Origin: Nonomuraea turcica
GTDB lineage: Bacteria; Actinomycetota; Actinomycetes; Streptosporangiales; Streptosporangiaceae
Length of the DNA: 64,000 nt
Assembly (NCBI RefSeq): GCF_030718205.1
Contig: NZ_JAUZQF010000001.1
Span: forward strand, 62,001-126,000
Direction of reading: 5' to 3'
In this document: positions 9,505-17,136 of the stretch, one piece after another
Position numbering within the stretch: the stretch's first letter is position 1
Layout: each line of letters begins with the position of its first letter
Translations under genes and position numbers: made by a program
Notes under the pieces: generated by a model
Databases searched by the model: none
What the model was told of the DNA's origin: nothing
What the model saw: only the letters and a program-made list of their open reading frames with translations

Positions 9505-9683
9505 ACAACGCCGACCTGGCCAGCATCACGGTCGCCACCGCGAGGGCCACCCCCGCTCCAGCGGTGGCGACGAGCCCGCCCAGCACCGCCACCCCGAGTT
9601 CTTGTAGGTATCAAGCGGCGCCGCTCCGCGCCGCCAGTGCGGCCCTGCGCTCGGCCGCAGGCCGCGTGCGGCCTGGAGGCAAC

Positions 9684-9812
9684 GTTGTTAGCGGCTTGTC
9701 TCTCGTGGCGTCTTGTCGCTGCGACCACGACCCACGCGATGATCGCGGCCACGATGCCGCCGATGACCGCAGAGAGCGCGCCCTGTAACAGGTTCGCCCA
9801 CCAACCTTGCAT
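9684..9812 (-). pseudogene. Truncated membrane-protein N-terminus
   Basis: From ATG 9812 the frame encodes MQGWWANLLQGALSAVIGG followed by VAAIIAWVVVAATRRHERQ. This is a well-formed transmembrane helix with a positive cytoplasmic end. Beyond residue 43 the frame loses protein character. A second hydrophobic stretch (VAVLGGLVATAGAGVALAVA) appears in another frame at about 9520-9600, consistent with a frameshifted small membrane protein. Confidence 0.35.
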
Positions 9813-11820: not shown

Positions 11821-11854
11821 GCCTGTGGATACATCGAAGTGTGTATCCACAGGC
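11821..11854. promoter_or_regulatory. 34-bp perfect palindrome before the two-component operon
   Basis: GCCTGTGGATACA (11821-11833) and TGTATCCACAGGC (11842-11854) form perfect 13-bp arms around TCGAAGTG. It lies 49 bases upstream of the histidine kinase ATG and 85 bases beyond the divergent tRNA. It could be the operator of the response regulator or a leader hairpin. The absence of a T run and the position favour an operator. Confidence 0.6.
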
Positions 11855-11903
11855 AGGTCCCTCGCAGGAGGGCGACAGGGGGCTGGGGTGGTGGGATAGG
11901 AGC

Positions 11904-13109
11904 ATGAAGTGGGTCGTGTTCGGGGCTGTGGTGGCCTTCGCGGCGGGTGTGGTGCTGATCGCGGGTGGCGCCTATGTCGAGCGCGGGGTGCCCGAGTGGC
12001 TGCTCGTCCTGCCCTTGACGATCACTTGTGCTGGGGTTCTCGTGCGGCAGCGGGCGCCGCTCTTGTCTCTGGGGCTCGGGGTGGTCGCGGTCACCGTGGA
12101 CGGGTTCGTGGGGCCGTCCTTGGGGACCGTGCTCGTGTTCACCGACAACCTGTACGCGGCCGTGCTCTACGGGCCGGCCCGGTTTGCTCGGGTGCTGCTC
12201 GGGGTGACGGCCACGCTGGCGGTGGTGGGTGGGGCGGTGGCCGGGTTCATCGCCCAGGACTGGCGAGCGCTGGCCGTGATGGGGATCCAGGCGGGGTTGG
12301 TGCTGGTCACGCCGGTCACGACTGCGCTGGTGCTGCGGGAGCAGCGAGATCGGGCGGCGGCCGAGCGGCTGCGGGCGGAGCAGGTGGCGCATCTGGCGGA
12401 GCTCGATCGGCAGGCGGCCATCGCCGCGGAGCGTACGCGTATGGCGCGCGAACTGCATGACATGATCGCCAATCACTTCAGCGCGATAGCCATCCAGTCC
12501 ACGGCTGCGCTCTCTCGTACGGATCTCGATCCGGAGACGGTTCGGAAGGTCATGGAGTCCGTACGGGAGAACAGCGTCAAGGGGATGGCCGAGATGCGGT
12601 CCATGATCGGACTGTTGCGGCAGGAGGGGGAGGAGCCTGAGGCCACTCGGCCGCGGCTGGCCGATGCGGAGACCTTGGTGGAGCGGGTCAGGCGGGCGGG
12701 GCTCGTTGCCGGATTGCGGGTCGACGGGGATGCCCGTGAGGTGCCTGCCTCCGTTGACCTGGCCGGCTATCGGATTCTGCAGGAGGCGTTGACCAACGCG
12801 CTCAAGCATGGGGACTCGCCGGTTGACGTCGTGGTCTCCTATGAGGCCGGGCGCGTCGTGGTGACCGTTGACAACGTCGTGGGAGGGGCAGGCGCGGCGC
12901 GGTTGCCGGGGGCGAGGGCCGGGGTGATCGGCATGCGGGAGAGGGCCTCGTTGGTCGGAGGTTCCCTGGATGTCGGACCTGGTGGGCAGGACGGCATGGG
13001 GCGGGGCCGGTGGCGGGTGCTCGCCGTGCTGCCTACCTCTGACAATCAGACTTTCCACGGGAATGGGGCGGGGCCGATTGCGGTCGACGTACGGCAGGAA
13101 GGTGCGTGA
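11904..13109 (+). CDS. NarL-type sensor histidine kinase
   Basis: 401 aa from ATG 11904 (MKWVVFGAVVAFAAG). Four to five hydrophobic helices fill residues 1-150. A coiled stretch (REQRDRAAAERLRAEQVAHL) leads to the HisKA_3 box ARELHDMIANHFSAIAIQST, with the His in ELHD phosphorylated. The ATP-binding part has YRILQEALTNALKHG (N-box) and GVIGMRERASLVGG (G-box). There is no extracellular sensor domain, so the signal is likely felt in or at the membrane. The response-regulator GTG follows the stop by three bases. Confidence 0.92.
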   Translation: MKWVVFGAVVAFAAGVVLIAGGAYVERGVPEWLLVLPLTITCAGVLVRQRAPLLSLGLGVVAVTVDGFVGPSLGTVLVFTDNLYAAVLYGPARFARVLLGVTATLAVVGGAVAGFIAQDWRALAVMGIQAGLVLVTPVTTALVLREQRDRAAAERLRAEQVAHLAELDRQAAIAAERTRMARELHDMIANHFSAIAIQSTAALSRTDLDPETVRKVMESVRENSVKGMAEMRSMIGLLRQEGEEPEATRPRLADAETLVERVRRAGLVAGLRVDGDAREVPASVDLAGYRILQEALTNALKHGDSPVDVVVSYEAGRVVVTVDNVVGGAGAARLPGARAGVIGMRERASLVGGSLDVGPGGQDGMGRGRWRVLAVLPTSDNQTFHGNGAGPIAVDVRQEGA

Positions 13110-13112
13110 CAG

Positions 13113-13748
13113 GTGACGATCAAGGTGTTGGTCGCCGACGATCATGCGGCGGTCCGGGCCGGGATCGCCTTGATCCTCGGCGGCGTGCCGGACATCGAGG
13201 TGATCGGCGAGGCGGGTGACGGGGAGCAGGCTGTGGCCATGGCCAAGCAGCTCCGGCCCGATGTGGTGCTGATGGACGTACGCATGCCACGCCTCGACGG
13301 CATCTCGGCCACCAGGGAGCTGGCGGGGATCAGCGATGTGCTGATCCTGACGACGTTCGATGTCGACGAGTACGTTTTCGGCGCCCTGCGCGCGGGTGCG
13401 GCCGGTTTCCTGCTGAAGAACACCGACGCCGAGTCCCTGGTGGAGGCGGTCCGGCTGGTGGCGCGTGGTGATGGGCTGATCTCGCCGGCGGTCACGCGGA
13501 AGTTGATCGCGGCCTTCGCCGGGGAGGTGACGCCGTCGCGGCGGGAGCCGGCGGCCGGTCCGGACAGCCTGACGCCGCGCGAGCGGGAAGTGCTGGCCTG
13601 CATCGGGCGCGGCATGTCCAACGCCGAGATCGCCAGAGAGCTGGACATGGCGGAGGCCACGACGAAGACGCATGTCAGCCGGGTGCTGAACAAGCTGGGA
13701 CTGAAGAGCCGGGTACAGGCGGCGATTTACTACTCAGGCGGCACTTAG
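13113..13748 (+). CDS. NarL/LuxR-family response regulator
   Basis: 211 aa from GTG 13113. The receiver domain has the acidic pair in VLVADDHAAVR and phospho-acceptor Asp in DVVLMDVRMPRLDG, with T in LILTTFD and K in FLLKNTD. The C-terminal LuxR helix-turn-helix is LTPREREVLACIGRGMSNAE onward to THVSRVLNKLGLKSRVQA. It is cotranscribed with the kinase and is its cognate partner. The 34-bp palindrome before the operon is a candidate binding site. Confidence 0.94.
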   Translation: MTIKVLVADDHAAVRAGIALILGGVPDIEVIGEAGDGEQAVAMAKQLRPDVVLMDVRMPRLDGISATRELAGISDVLILTTFDVDEYVFGALRAGAAGFLLKNTDAESLVEAVRLVARGDGLISPAVTRKLIAAFAGEVTPSRREPAAGPDSLTPREREVLACIGRGMSNAEIARELDMAEATTKTHVSRVLNKLGLKSRVQAAIYYSGGT

Positions 13749-13766
13749 CGCCGTAATGTGTGCGAC

Positions 13767-14117
13767 GTGAGCATGCCGCCGCCGCCTGAGCCGCCTCAGG
13801 GGCCACCTCAAGGGCCACAGCAGGAGCCGCCTCGTCGTACGGGGCTGATCGTCGGGCTGGCGTTCGCCGGGTTCTTCGGCTATCTCGTCATCAATGTGAT
13901 CACCGGCTTCGTCGCCTTTGCGTTCGAGTCGGAGGTGGCGTTCGGGGTGGGGGCCGGGTTCCTGGCGCTCGTCGGCATCGGTGTGGGGTTGGTGTTCGTG
14001 CTGCTGCGGAGATCGTGGTCCCTGGGACTGGGGCTGGGTCTGATGATCGGCTGGGCGCTCACGTCGATCGTCACGGCCGGCTGGTGCACGGGGCTCAACC
14101 CGGGCCTGTACGCGTAG
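13767..14117 (+). CDS. Small three-helix membrane protein, copy 1
   Basis: 116 aa from GTG 13767, chosen to match the MSMPPP start of its paralogue. A Pro/Gln-rich cytoplasmic tail (PPEPPQGPPQGPQQEPPRRT) precedes three transmembrane helices. The end, GLGLGLMIGWALTS, a gap, then CTGLNPGLYA, is nearly identical to the next gene. Function unknown. It follows the response-regulator gene by 18 bases and may be part of the same transcript. Confidence 0.7.
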   Translation: MSMPPPPEPPQGPPQGPQQEPPRRTGLIVGLAFAGFFGYLVINVITGFVAFAFESEVAFGVGAGFLALVGIGVGLVFVLLRRSWSLGLGLGLMIGWALTSIVTAGWCTGLNPGLYA

Positions 14118-14197
14118 ATGGACGTTGTGATCCGATGGCAATCGCCCGCCCCTAGCCTGGCCTCCAGCCCGATGGCGACGTGGGGGAGAACCGACCG

Positions 14198-14575
14198 ATG
14201 AGCATGCCGCCGCCCGACCCGAACCACCGTTGGCAGCCCCCGTACGGACCACCGCCGCCTCCGCCCAGCGGGTCCTCCACCGGCGTCGTCGTCGCGCTCG
14301 CGTTCGCCGGCCTGGCGCTCTACAGCGTGGTCAACGTCATCGTCGGCTTCTTCGTCTTCTTCGCCGCCATGGGCTCGAACGGCTCCAACATCCTCCCCGT
14401 GGTGGCGGGTACGGCGGTCCTCGCCCTCGTCGGCCTGGGCGCTGGCATAGCCCTCGTGATCATCCGCCAACCCTGGACCCGGGGCCTCGGCCTAGGGCTC
14501 ATGATCGGGTGGGCGCTGTGGTCGATCCTGTCCGCCGGGATCTGCACCGGCCTGAACCCGGGCCTGTACGCCTGA
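14198..14575 (+). CDS. Small three-helix membrane protein, copy 2
   Basis: 125 aa from ATG 14198 (MSMPPPDPNHRWQPPYGPPP). Same plan as the upstream gene: Pro-rich tail, three membrane helices, and the identical ending CTGLNPGLYA. The pair is a tandem duplication that has diverged in the tail and helices 1-2. Its stop is one base before the Lgt-like gene start, so it is probably translated together with that operon. Function unknown. Confidence 0.72.
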   Translation: MSMPPPDPNHRWQPPYGPPPPPPSGSSTGVVVALAFAGLALYSVVNVIVGFFVFFAAMGSNGSNILPVVAGTAVLALVGLGAGIALVIIRQPWTRGLGLGLMIGWALWSILSAGICTGLNPGLYA

Positions 14576-14576
14576 C

Positions 14577-15311
14577 ATGCTTCCCCTTCACGAGATATTC
14601 GTCGGCCTGGGTGTCTTCGTGGCCTCCGTCGTCTTCGTACGGGAGGCCAGAAGACGCGGCGCCCTCAACGAGCAGTCGCTGATAGCCGTCACCGGCGCCC
14701 TGGTCGGCGGCGCCATCGGCATGCGCCTGGCCGGCTGGCTGGAGACGCTGGACCTCCAGAACCTCTGGCTGTACGGCTCCCGCAGCATCCTCGGCGGCCT
14801 GACCGGCGCGTACGTCGGCGTGCTCGCCGCCAAGAAGATCATCGGCTACAAGGAACGCACCGGCGACCTGTTCGCTCCGGCCGTGGCGCTCGGCATGGCG
14901 GTGGGCAGGATCGGCTGCCATCTCACCGAGGCCCCGGGCCGGCCCACCGACCTGCCCTGGGGCGTGCACGCCCCGGCGTCGACCCCCGAATGCCCCGGCT
15001 GCCTGGCCGGCCAGGCCATGCACCCGTCGTTCATCTACGAGATCATCTTCCAGCTCGCCGCATTCGCAGCGCTCATGTGGGCACGGAAGCGGCTCACACA
15101 GCCCGGCGAACTGCTCACCCTCTACCTCGCCGGGTATGCCGCCTTCCGTTTCCTCGTCGAGTTCACCAGAGCCAACGACACGCTCTGGCTCGGCCTGACC
15201 GGGCCACAGTGTTTCCTGCTCGTCGGGTTGCCGCTGCTCGCGTTCCGGCTCGCGTACGGCTGGCGGCGCGGTTATTACGATCCCCTTTTCCAGCGGAAGG
15301 TCATGGCATGA
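14577..15311 (+). CDS. Lgt-like (prolipoprotein diacylglyceryl transferase family) membrane protein
   Basis: 244 aa, six to seven membrane helices. GRIGCHLTEAPGRPTDLPWG aligns with the Lgt signature (GRIGNF.N.E..G.PTDLPWG), and HPSFIYE and RFLVEFTR are typical family stretches. The signature Asn is Cys here, and the catalytic-His motif HGG reads LGG (RSILGGLTG). It is thus unlikely to be the housekeeping Lgt. It may bind phosphatidylglycerol or a related lipid for another reaction (inference). Its TGA overlaps the ATG of a Tes-like radical SAM gene, which ties the two functionally. Confidence 0.82.
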   Translation: MLPLHEIFVGLGVFVASVVFVREARRRGALNEQSLIAVTGALVGGAIGMRLAGWLETLDLQNLWLYGSRSILGGLTGAYVGVLAAKKIIGYKERTGDLFAPAVALGMAVGRIGCHLTEAPGRPTDLPWGVHAPASTPECPGCLAGQAMHPSFIYEIIFQLAAFAALMWARKRLTQPGELLTLYLAGYAAFRFLVEFTRANDTLWLGLTGPQCFLLVGLPLLAFRLAYGWRRGYYDPLFQRKVMA

Positions 15312-16825
15312 ACACAGGGATGGGTCTGCGGGGCGACCGCATCCTCAGGTACGTCAACGCGTTCTGCCCGCACTGCCACGGCCAGGACCTGGACAAGGTC
15401 GAGCGCCTGAGCGGCTACCTGGCCGAACGCGACGGCCGCGTATGGCTGGAGCGGGGCTGCCGCGAGCACGGCCTGATCCGGACTTTGTACGACGAAGACC
15501 CAGAAATCCTCAAATACCTGGAGGAATGGACCGCCCCGACCAAGCACCACGTACCGGATCTGTCGGGAAACTTTGCTCCGATCCCCCTCGCGTACCTCAA
15601 CGGCCTCCCCGAGATGCAGACCCAGCACACCTGCATCCTCCTCGAGGACATCGCCGAGACCTGCAACCTGCGCTGCCCCACCTGCTTCGCCGACAGTTCC
15701 CCTGACCTCGCCGGCGTCGTCCCCGTCCCCGACATCCTCGCGAACGTGGACCAACGTCTCGAAAGGGAGAACGGCCGCCTCGACGTCCTCATGCTGAGCG
15801 GCGGCGAGCCCACCCTCCACCCCGAGCTCAAAACCCTGCTGACCGAGCTCGAACAGCGCCCGATCACCCGCATCCTGATCAACACCAACGGCGTCCTCAT
15901 CGCCAGGGACGATTCTCTCCTCGACCTCCTCACCGAGCACAGGGAGCGGGTGGAGGTCTATCTGCAGTACGACGGCTCCTCCGAGCACGCCTCGAGGCAC
16001 CACCGAGGCGGCGACCTGCGCCGGCTCAAGGCCGCGGCCCTCGAGCGCCTGTCGGCGCGCGAGATCTTCACCACCCTGGTCATGACGGCCGCGCTGGGCG
16101 TCAACGACGGCGAGATCGGCGACGTCGTACGCCTCGCGCTCGACACCCCGTACGTCGGAGGCGTCTCCCTGCAACCCCAGTTCGGTTCGGGCCGATCGGG
16201 CACCATCGACCCGATGAACCGGCTCACCCACACCGGCGTGCTCAAACGCCTCGGCCCGCAGACCGGTGGCCTGGTGACCTGGCGCGACCTCACCGCCCTG
16301 CCCTGCTCCCACCCCCACTGCTGCTCGGTCGGCTACCTGATCCGCGACGACGCCCAGCAGTGGCGCTCCCTCACCGCGCTGATCGGCCACGACCGGCTCA
16401 AGGAGAACCTGGGCCTGGTCTCCAACCGCATCGCCGACAGCGAAATCCCGAAGGAACTGCGGCTTGCCGTACAGGAATCCCTGCTCGGACTCCTGTCCGA
16501 GCAGTCGTCGCTGTCCCACCCGCAGATCGGCGACCTGTGGCGGAACATCTGCGAGAACTGCGACCTCGGCGTCTCCACCCTCCTCACCCTCGCCTCCTCA
16601 GCGCTCCCGGGCCGGCGCAGGAAACTGCGCAGGATGCTGGGGGAGCGGGTGGTACGCATCACGATCAAACCGTTCATGGACATCTCCACGATGATCGAGG
16701 AGCGGCTCACGCAGTGCTGCGTGCACGTGGGCACGCGGGCCGAGCAGGACCAGTGCGCGCCGTTCTGCGCCGTACAGGCCTGGCCGCAACTCTCCCGTCA
16801 ACGACTGTCGGCGGTGACGTCGTGA
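15308..16825 (+). CDS. Radical SAM enzyme of the MJ0619/Tes (tetraether lipid synthase) type
   Basis: 505 aa from ATG 15308. An N-terminal rubredoxin-like knuckle (CPHC at 20-23, CREHG at 51-55) precedes the radical SAM cluster motif C119-x3-C123-x2-C126 (TCNLRCPTCFAD) and SGGEPTLHPEL (SAM binding). More Cys follow (PCSHPHCCSVG, CENCD). The C-terminal FMD...ER...CCVHV...PFC pattern (C470, C471, C487) is that of the archaeal MJ0619 family. Archaeal Tes joins lipid tails and has three 4Fe-4S clusters plus a rubredoxin-like iron. A lipid substrate here is inferred from family and from the Lgt-like neighbour. Confidence 0.85.
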   Translation: MNTGMGLRGDRILRYVNAFCPHCHGQDLDKVERLSGYLAERDGRVWLERGCREHGLIRTLYDEDPEILKYLEEWTAPTKHHVPDLSGNFAPIPLAYLNGLPEMQTQHTCILLEDIAETCNLRCPTCFADSSPDLAGVVPVPDILANVDQRLERENGRLDVLMLSGGEPTLHPELKTLLTELEQRPITRILINTNGVLIARDDSLLDLLTEHRERVEVYLQYDGSSEHASRHHRGGDLRRLKAAALERLSAREIFTTLVMTAALGVNDGEIGDVVRLALDTPYVGGVSLQPQFGSGRSGTIDPMNRLTHTGVLKRLGPQTGGLVTWRDLTALPCSHPHCCSVGYLIRDDAQQWRSLTALIGHDRLKENLGLVSNRIADSEIPKELRLAVQESLLGLLSEQSSLSHPQIGDLWRNICENCDLGVSTLLTLASSALPGRRRKLRRMLGERVVRITIKPFMDISTMIEERLTQCCVHVGTRAEQDQCAPFCAVQAWPQLSRQRLSAVTS

Positions 16826-17136
16826 CGGCGGACGATCCTCGCTCTGGCGAGACTTCGGCGAAGGGCCAGCCGTACGATCCGCGCTCCAGCGGGACTCCGG
16901 CGAAGGGCCAGCCGTACGACCCGCTCAGGTTGTGCGTGTACGCGACCGTCGCCGTCCTGGCCTGGCTGCTCGGGCCGTGGGCGGTGCTGGGGTTCGCGGT
17001 GCTCGGGTTCGCCGGCTACTGGAAGGCGCGGCGAGCCGGGCTGACCCGAAGCAAGTGCCTGCTCAGGGACACCCGGCTCGTGCTGGCCTACCTCGGGCTT
17101 CTCGCCGTCGTGGCCGTCGTCGCGATCATCGTGTGA
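16822..17136 (+). CDS. Small two-helix membrane protein of the radical SAM operon
   Basis: 104 aa from GTG 16822, overlapping the radical SAM stop by 4 bases. The cytoplasmic N-terminus has a near-exact duplication of about 14 residues (SGETSAKGQPYDPR and SSGTPAKGQPYDPL), mirrored by a DNA repeat at about 16844-16920. Two membrane helices follow (AVLAWLLGPWAVLGFAVLGF and LVLAYLGLLAVVAVVAIIV), separated by a basic loop (KARRAGLTRSK). Function unknown. Tight coupling suggests an accessory subunit of the lipid-modifying operon (inference). Confidence 0.7.
   Translation: MTADDPRSGETSAKGQPYDPRSSGTPAKGQPYDPLRLCVYATVAVLAWLLGPWAVLGFAVLGFAGYWKARRAGLTRSKCLLRDTRLVLAYLGLLAVVAVVAIIV

Follow-up and report, generated by a model that had tools for sequence, protein, structure and literature searches.

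Why would an actinobacterium pair a relative of Lgt, which takes diacylglyceryl from phosphatidylglycerol and attaches it to a thiol on the outer side of the membrane (PMC4728403), with a relative of Tes, which acts on lipid tails using S-adenosylmethionine (SAM) and several clusters (PMC9433317)? The question arises from a 64,000-nucleotide stretch of Nonomuraea turcica (G000:C1:62001-126000, in a genome of 12.66 Mb), hereafter the window, in which an earlier reading of the DNA without database searches (the sequence-only reading) had noticed three genes at 14577-17136 that overlap by 4 bases at each joint, with two duplicated small membrane proteins just upstream. The layout is as it was described: all three frames are open, and the upstream copies, which we call M1 and M2 (together, M), lie at 13758-14117 and 14180-14575. 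We find that the M proteins, treated earlier as bystanders, belong to the system and are its main lead, and that a conserved cysteine in their C-terminal tail is probably what the cassette acts on. The features are as follows.

13758 to 14117, forward strand: M1, a small membrane protein with a proline-rich N-terminus, about three predicted transmembrane segments and the C-terminus GWCTGLNPGLYA
14085 to 14101, forward strand: codons for C-T-G-L-N-P in M1, a candidate modification site
14180 to 14575, forward strand: M2, second copy of the small membrane protein, with the C-terminus GICTGLNPGLYA
14543 to 14559, forward strand: codons for C-T-G-L-N-P in M2
14577 to 15311, forward strand: Lgt-like membrane protein, 244 amino acids (Pfam LGT, 6.7e-31; PDB 5azb, 1.3e-7)
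15308 to 16825, forward strand: Tes/TrsS-like radical SAM enzyme, 505 amino acids (NCBIfam TrsS/Tes; 7tol, 3.5e-31)
16822 to 17136, forward strand: P3, a small membrane protein with DPLxLC and SxC-x-L-x-DTR motifs and two conserved cysteines

All five genes point the same way with little spacing; a single base separates the end of M2 (14575) from the start of the Lgt-like gene (14577), and we treat M1, M2, the Lgt-like gene, the radical SAM gene and P3 as one tightly spaced run. Is this arrangement a local accident? We examined 80 loci (L032-L111), the best 80 of 357 relatives and a set biased towards close kin, in which L057 and L058 are the same stretch of Nonomuraea lactucae on two scaffolds. 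The Lgt-like, M and radical SAM genes lie together in 78 of them, the exceptions (L045 and L074) being cut by contig ends, and M is found in 79, the exception again being L045, with two copies in 21. One or two copies of M stand ahead of the Lgt-like gene in 33 loci, mostly from Nonomuraea, and M sits between the Lgt-like and radical SAM genes in 45, which come from other Streptosporangiaceae, Nocardia and mycobacteria. Among 151 Mycobacteriaceae genomes the radical SAM enzyme (E <= 1e-80), M (E <= 1e-6) and the Lgt-like protein (E <= 1e-40) each occur in eight, and these are the identical eight. Within the window's own order the radical SAM gene is present in 34 of 150 genomes, all 34 of which have a strong M match (E <= 6.4e-21); M relatives without the enzyme, meaning no match at E <= 1e-80, occur in 10 genomes. 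P3 (E <= 1e-6) is found in 31 of the 34 and in none of the 116 others, and the radical SAM gene, M and P3 are all three missing from one genome of the same genus (G329). Among Streptosporangiales and Mycobacteriaceae genomes, wherever the enzymes were found, M was found too. In P3, DTR is present in 62 of 63 matches, and among these 62, once aligned, the first cysteine stands in 62 and the second in 61, the remaining one having a gap; its N-terminus in the window (16855-16925) carries a short tandem duplication, AKGQPYDP, that is not seen among the relatives listed. Directly upstream of M1, at 11841-13748, lies a histidine kinase and LuxR-type regulator pair that recurs in many Nonomuraea loci and in Thermoactinospora; it is weak or missing in the remaining loci, and its position beside the cassette is therefore probably local synteny.

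The association also reaches beyond close kin. A survey of the phylum found the radical SAM type in six of 296 genomes, four of them outside the class, and an Lgt-like gene adjoins it in all six. The sequence-only reading had proposed asking whether the three-gene order is conserved across actinobacteria, and homologues of the Lgt-like gene, the radical SAM gene and gene 3 are indeed clustered in other actinobacterial classes (L011-L014, L022) at 45-70% identity; the trio is not a chance grouping. Outside Actinomycetota, where phyla were sampled through plasmids only, a plasmid of Persicobacter (Bacteroidota) has an Lgt-like gene that overlaps a Tes/TrsS-like gene by 11 bases. The radical SAM and Lgt-like genes are likewise found together on plasmids of M. 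branderi (pJCM12687, L121) and M. avium (NZ_CP076860), and M is present in the M. branderi stretch, which is the one that was checked for it. A TnpA/TnpB element lies directly downstream on the M. branderi plasmid. A tiny, 3762-base contig of Nocardia aurea (L059) holds a cassette 87% identical to the query, as close as that of N. lactucae, and contamination or transfer is possible there. One might still ask whether the window simply holds a second, weak lipoprotein Lgt that came to lie by chance beside an unrelated radical SAM gene, given that MSMEG_5408, a second Lgt homologue in M. smegmatis, is presumed to have low activity (PMC13251419) and that two other Lgts are encoded in the N. turcica genome. 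This ordinary explanation is already disfavoured by the co-occurrence, namely the identical eight of 151 genomes, the association across classes and the Bacteroidota pairing, and we regard it as highly improbable.

What, then, do the M proteins contribute? At their C-terminus a hydrophobic stretch leads into G-x-C-T-G-[LIV]-N-P-x-x-Y. Among 101 M proteins (matches in loci L010-L111 at tblastn E <= 1e-4, with motif columns counted on motif-selected rows), 95 fit this motif, two more read CTGVNT and four, all of them second copies, lack the cysteine. M1 and M2 have uncertain start codons (13758, 13767 or 13773 for M1; 14180 or 14198 for M2) and are 57% identical across the C-terminal domain. The DNA pattern TGYACNGGNNTNAAYCCN has exactly two matches in the whole genome, at 14085-14101 in M1 and 14543-14559 in M2, and a search of the genome for further substrates with the CTGxNP pattern found none beyond these two proteins, the reversed-pattern control giving 0. 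The distance from the last lysine or arginine to the cysteine is 20 residues in 66 and 24 in 29 of the 95 motif-bearing proteins. For 84 of these proteins the loop preceding the last helix averages 2.6 Lys/Arg and 0.14 Asp/Glu, and the C-tail averages 0.18 Lys/Arg and 0.43 Asp/Glu; by the positive-inside rule the cysteine is therefore predicted to face outward, on the side where Lgt works. Neither copy has a home in Pfam, the best match being MscL for M1 (E 0.24) and Ctr for M2 (E 0.022, below the Ctr cut-off). No solved structure matches M at E <= 1, and for the family as a whole the Pfam matches are weak, chiefly to Mycobacteriophage_TM (18 of 36 members at E <= 0.1, best 4e-4). The last of these hints at a possible phage link; a pattern search of IMG/VR for viral relatives gave no match, and the phage matches among those listed (10 of 12) cover at most 47% of the query.

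The cysteine follows the enzymes. It is kept in all 31 examined enzyme-bearing genomes of the order (G298, G302 and G406 left out) and is missing from the M relatives in all 10 genomes of the order without the enzyme. The nearest of these, in G322 (E 1.2e-18, 37-39% identity), has glycine in its place, and no Lgt-like or radical SAM match lies within 12 kb of it, the Lgt-like gene having been sought in 7-12 kb around the ten M relatives. Presence with the enzyme and absence without it tie the cysteine to the cassette enzymes, although not to one of them in particular. One way to read this link is as protein maturation: the radical SAM enzyme would modify M itself, for example by placing a crosslink (thioether or C-C) in its CTGLNPxLY tail, in the manner of a ribosomally synthesized and post-translationally modified peptide (RiPP), with the Lgt-like protein acting later or serving as a membrane guide. 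A short conserved terminal motif, the two M copies in 21 of the 80 loci and the cysteine link itself would all fit such a scheme, but the predicted outward tail lies beyond the reach of a cytosolic SAM enzyme, the best relatives of the enzyme are lipid enzymes or proteins of no known function rather than peptide maturases, and several enzyme-bearing genomes have no M at E <= 1e-5. A RiPP precursor gene near the cassette in relatives had been named in advance as evidence against a lipid role; M resembles one in co-occurring with the enzyme and in its terminal cysteine motif, but it does not do so in all enzyme genomes. We consider protein maturation unlikely.

The radical SAM protein has a rubredoxin-like knuckle (C20-C23...C51-H54), the cluster cysteines C119-C123-C126, an SGGEP motif and an FMD..ER..CC..PFC pattern in a C-terminal domain with C470, C471 and C487, along with extra cysteines C333, C338 and C418. 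Across 36 relatives no change is seen at C333, C338, C470 or C487, and C418 and C471 are almost always kept; the closest named relative, from Nonomuraea turkmeniaca, is 96% identical. Pfam assigns a radical SAM domain and an HMPTM zinc ribbon. The first-ranked NCBIfam family is TrsS (NF045646; E 8.5e-57, 192.6 bits against a cut-off of 490) and the second is Tes (NF045702; E 1.4e-43, 149.3 bits against 450). The sole convincing full-length solved relative is Tes (7tol, E 3.5e-31; profile E 3.7e-117). An AlphaFold 2 (AF2) model built from 36 sequences (predicted local distance difference test score, pLDDT, 83.5; predicted template modelling score, pTM, 0.89) matches the Tes structure 7tom over its full length in Foldseek (E 1.7e-31; template modelling score, TM, 0.74/0.75; 539 columns), a comparison that the sequence-only reading had proposed; the next fold, SkfB, matches over only 218 columns (E 3.4e-8). 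The predicted fold of the lipid enzyme is therefore complete. By sequence and predicted fold the protein belongs to the Tes/TrsS group along its full length. Placement among the peptide maturases was considered and rejected, the best sequence and fold matches being TrsS, Tes and 7tol/7tom, as was a viperin-type role in anti-phage defence, where the PADLOC pVip match (E 2.4e-9) is limited to residues 115-201, the radical SAM core. Two oddities were seen in relatives of this gene. In one Streptosporangiaceae genome (L187, G362:C1:5866944-5868474) it is split over two frames, as a broken gene or a sequencing error, and that genome still has the Lgt-like protein, M with its cysteine, and P3. In G162 (L114, about 9545-9763) it contains in-frame repeated segments near the equivalent of residue 348, and similar Arg/Pro/Gly-rich repeats occur inside another nearby gene (L114, 5322-7487), possibly reflecting a protein-embedded repeat element.

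Membership in the group does not make the protein Tes. The sequence-only reading credited it with every landmark of the MJ0619/Tes family, and the knuckle, CxxxCxxC, SGGEP and the C-terminal pattern are shared with Tes (MJ0619, GDGT-MAS, 7tol/7tom), as are the full-length fold and the radical SAM core. Other landmarks are missing. Identity in the structural alignment is only 21-22%, and C73, C77 and C80, which with a histidine are the ligands of the N-terminal auxiliary [Fe4S4] cluster of Tes (PMC9433317), align together with that histidine to a cysteine-free stretch. Met439 and Tyr459, fully conserved among 1,000 archaeal Tes homologues (PMC9433317), are replaced by Lys and Val. The window protein also differs in its extra C333/C338/C418 and in its partners, the Lgt-like protein, M and P3. 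Our tree, which is outgroup-free (eight of the genome's own paralogs were left out after poor resolution), has bootstrap values that have not settled and represents Tes by MJ0619 alone, gathers the window branch (12 rows from four families) into a single clade with a long stem (100/100), joins Persicobacter to it weakly (73/65), and places MJ0619 apart from it, with haloarchaeal TrsS-like rows and L163 (99/97). The placement that had been suggested with MJ0619/Tes thus stands at the level of the Tes/TrsS group and does not extend to the MJ0619 branch itself. Because the N-terminal CxxxCxxC is absent, Met439 and Tyr459 are replaced and the clade is separate, we conclude from sequence that the protein is not Tes.

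Nor is it a typical TrsS, a name that appears as a table entry in PMC13188914. TrsS is its best NCBIfam match, and a PC..P.C stretch is common to it and to TrsS-like proteins, but its score is far below the family cut-off and its neighbours are the Lgt-like gene, M and P3 rather than a methyltransferase, a neighbour trait that we take from the fetched loci and not from a published definition. A methyltransferase gene adjoins the TrsS-like gene in six of eight actinobacterial loci (L163 has none, and L164 runs off the contig end), in five of five haloarchaeal plasmid loci and on the M. vanbaalenii plasmid; this partner goes by the name TrsM. No Lgt match at E <= 1e-3 lies beside the fetched TrsS-like loci. 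These loci make up a second Tes/TrsS-like branch with a methyltransferase (L119 7968-10336, L120 5926-8204, L165-L168, L157-L162), hosted by the M. vanbaalenii plasmid, haloarchaeal plasmids and several actinobacterial genomes, and in three haloarchaeal loci (L120, L165, L168) DUF547 and redoxin-type genes stand near the branch's gene. The parts of the cassette are relatives of known enzymes, and no known family is fully matched.

The likeness to Tes does raise the possibility that, much as the sequence-only reading had it, the cassette serves bulk membrane-lipid synthesis, in which the radical SAM enzyme would couple or otherwise alter phospholipid tails, the Lgt-like protein would present or transfer the lipid, and M and P3 would be accessory subunits. 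The full-length Tes fold suits this idea, as do the enzyme pairs of Persicobacter and of other actinobacterial classes, which have no M beside them, and membrane-spanning lipids have been proposed as a product of bacterial Tes homologues (PMC8941075, PMC11868695). The enzyme lacks Met439, Tyr459 and the N-terminal cluster motif of Tes, but the Tes variants M439A, Y459F and Y459L stay active (PMC9433317); with these two residues dispensable in Tes, their loss argues against membership in the family and not against lipid coupling. What bulk synthesis leaves unexplained is the association of M's terminal cysteine with the enzymes, and we consider it possible but somewhat unlikely.

Could the Lgt-like protein be the one that acts on the cysteine? 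It falls under every NCBIfam lgt cut-off, yet its likeness to E. coli Lgt (5azb) extends over the Pfam LGT match, the fold, R143, R239, E243 and the HPxxxYE region, and its AF2 model (mean pLDDT 76.6) matches 5azb in Foldseek (E 4.2e-6, TM 0.66), so that by sequence and model we assign it the Lgt fold. The residues at the key positions are L72 (H103 in E. coli Lgt), R111 (R143), C114 (N146), R191 (R239) and E195 (E243), and H5, which aligns to a tyrosine of the same genome's canonical Lgt, is taken as the Y26 position. The sequence-only reading had seen an Lgt-like protein without the HGG histidine and the signature asparagine, and L72 and C114 bear it out; it had also noted that intact catalytic residues on full alignment would count against its idea, and the alignment instead gives Y26H, H103L/I and N146C. 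These states are general: all 84 relatives compared have Cys at the N146 site, and at the H103 site 80 have Leu and four have Ile. Of the residues reported as essential in E. coli Lgt (Y26, H103, R143, N146, G154, R239; PMC13251419), R143 and R239 are kept, and Y26, H103 and N146 are replaced. Because Lgts with Tyr, Trp or Phe at H103 and with N146C are on record in the same source, loss of the histidine and asparagine does not prove inactivity. Of the two further Lgts encoded elsewhere in the genome, the one on C28 has Trp at H103 and Asn at N146. MSMEG_5408 is described as carrying Y26H and N146C (PMC13251419), as the window protein does; the comparison is by description alone, and orthology is a lead.

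The same residues bear on a thiol or redox role, in which the cysteines of M and P3 and the extra ones of the enzyme would serve as carriers of electrons or sulfur, with the Lgt-like protein as a scaffold that no longer has transferase activity. Conserved cysteines in M, in P3 and at C114 of the Lgt-like protein, together with the replacement of H103 and N146, could be read this way, but the phospholipid-binding residues of Lgt are retained and a lone, outward-facing cysteine in M would make a poor electron carrier, and we think such a role very unlikely.

We speculate that the cassette anchors M to an altered lipid. A cytosolic radical SAM enzyme, which P3 may keep at the membrane, would alter one or more phospholipid acyl chains by a radical step whose product might be a coupled tail among other possibilities. 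On the outer side, the Lgt-like protein would then attach the glyceryl lipid to the conserved cysteine that ends M's last membrane helix. The two arginines kept in the Lgt-like protein, R143 and R239, are those that hold phosphatidylglycerol in Lgt. Alteration inside followed by transfer outside is the scheme we favour, being the simplest one that uses all the parts, but in its full two-step form it is tentative. The coupling of the parts is observed, in their co-occurrence, gene order, folds and residue states and in the way M's cysteine follows the enzymes, whereas a lipid substrate, the cysteine as acceptor, the sequence of the two reactions and the radical chemistry are inferred. The earlier suggestion of unusual lipids keeps its basis in a Tes/TrsS-group enzyme beside an Lgt fold and loses the identification with Tes, and C-C joined lipids become just one possible product.

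Several observations weigh against lipid anchoring of M. Adjacent genes that are simply inherited together would yield matching presence and absence as well. Nine of the 10 cysteine-less M relatives are remote and perhaps belong to another family, with 27-33% identity where tblastn matched, three unmatched and one sequence shared by G390 and G398; the exception is the nearer one in G322. Four second copies of M, in mycobacterial loci L084, L089, L092 and L095 (7992 end), have no cysteine beside an intact cassette, one M copy there having lost the CTGxNP tail and the other retaining it. M has no canonical lipobox, the residue at -1 being F, I, Y, L or W in 93 of 95. Both H103 and N146 are replaced in the Lgt-like protein, so that a transferase role is only putative. 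Finally, of the six genomes in the phylum survey M is found (E <= 1e-5) only in G000 and G038, the other four (G103, G124, G162 and G253, all from other classes) having the pair and no M at that threshold, and a 17 kb Persicobacter stretch (L118) is without the M motif; branches without M must use another acceptor or none, which keeps bulk lipid synthesis alive as an explanation.

Among the literature matches listed, in titles and the starts of abstracts, none connects an Lgt homologue with a Tes-like enzyme, and the combination with a cysteine-tailed membrane protein is likewise not found there. Bacterial Tes homologues numbered 456 in one survey (PMC8941075) and have been used to guess which organisms make membrane-spanning lipids in soils and waters (PMC11868695). 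In one actinobacterial branch at least, the enzyme is linked to an Lgt-like partner and to one particular protein, so a Tes-like hit in Actinomycetota is not in itself the sign of a tetraether maker. The cassette is small and has many cultured hosts, and the M cysteine offers a single-residue test of what it does. If the cysteine is indeed the acceptor, a lipoprotein would here be modified at its C-terminal cysteine with no lipobox involved. It is more doubtful, though tempting to consider, that bacteria in this way anchor a protein through its C-terminal cysteine to a lipid that is altered or tail-coupled by a radical SAM enzyme, and that may span the membrane, by a route separate from the lipobox pathway.

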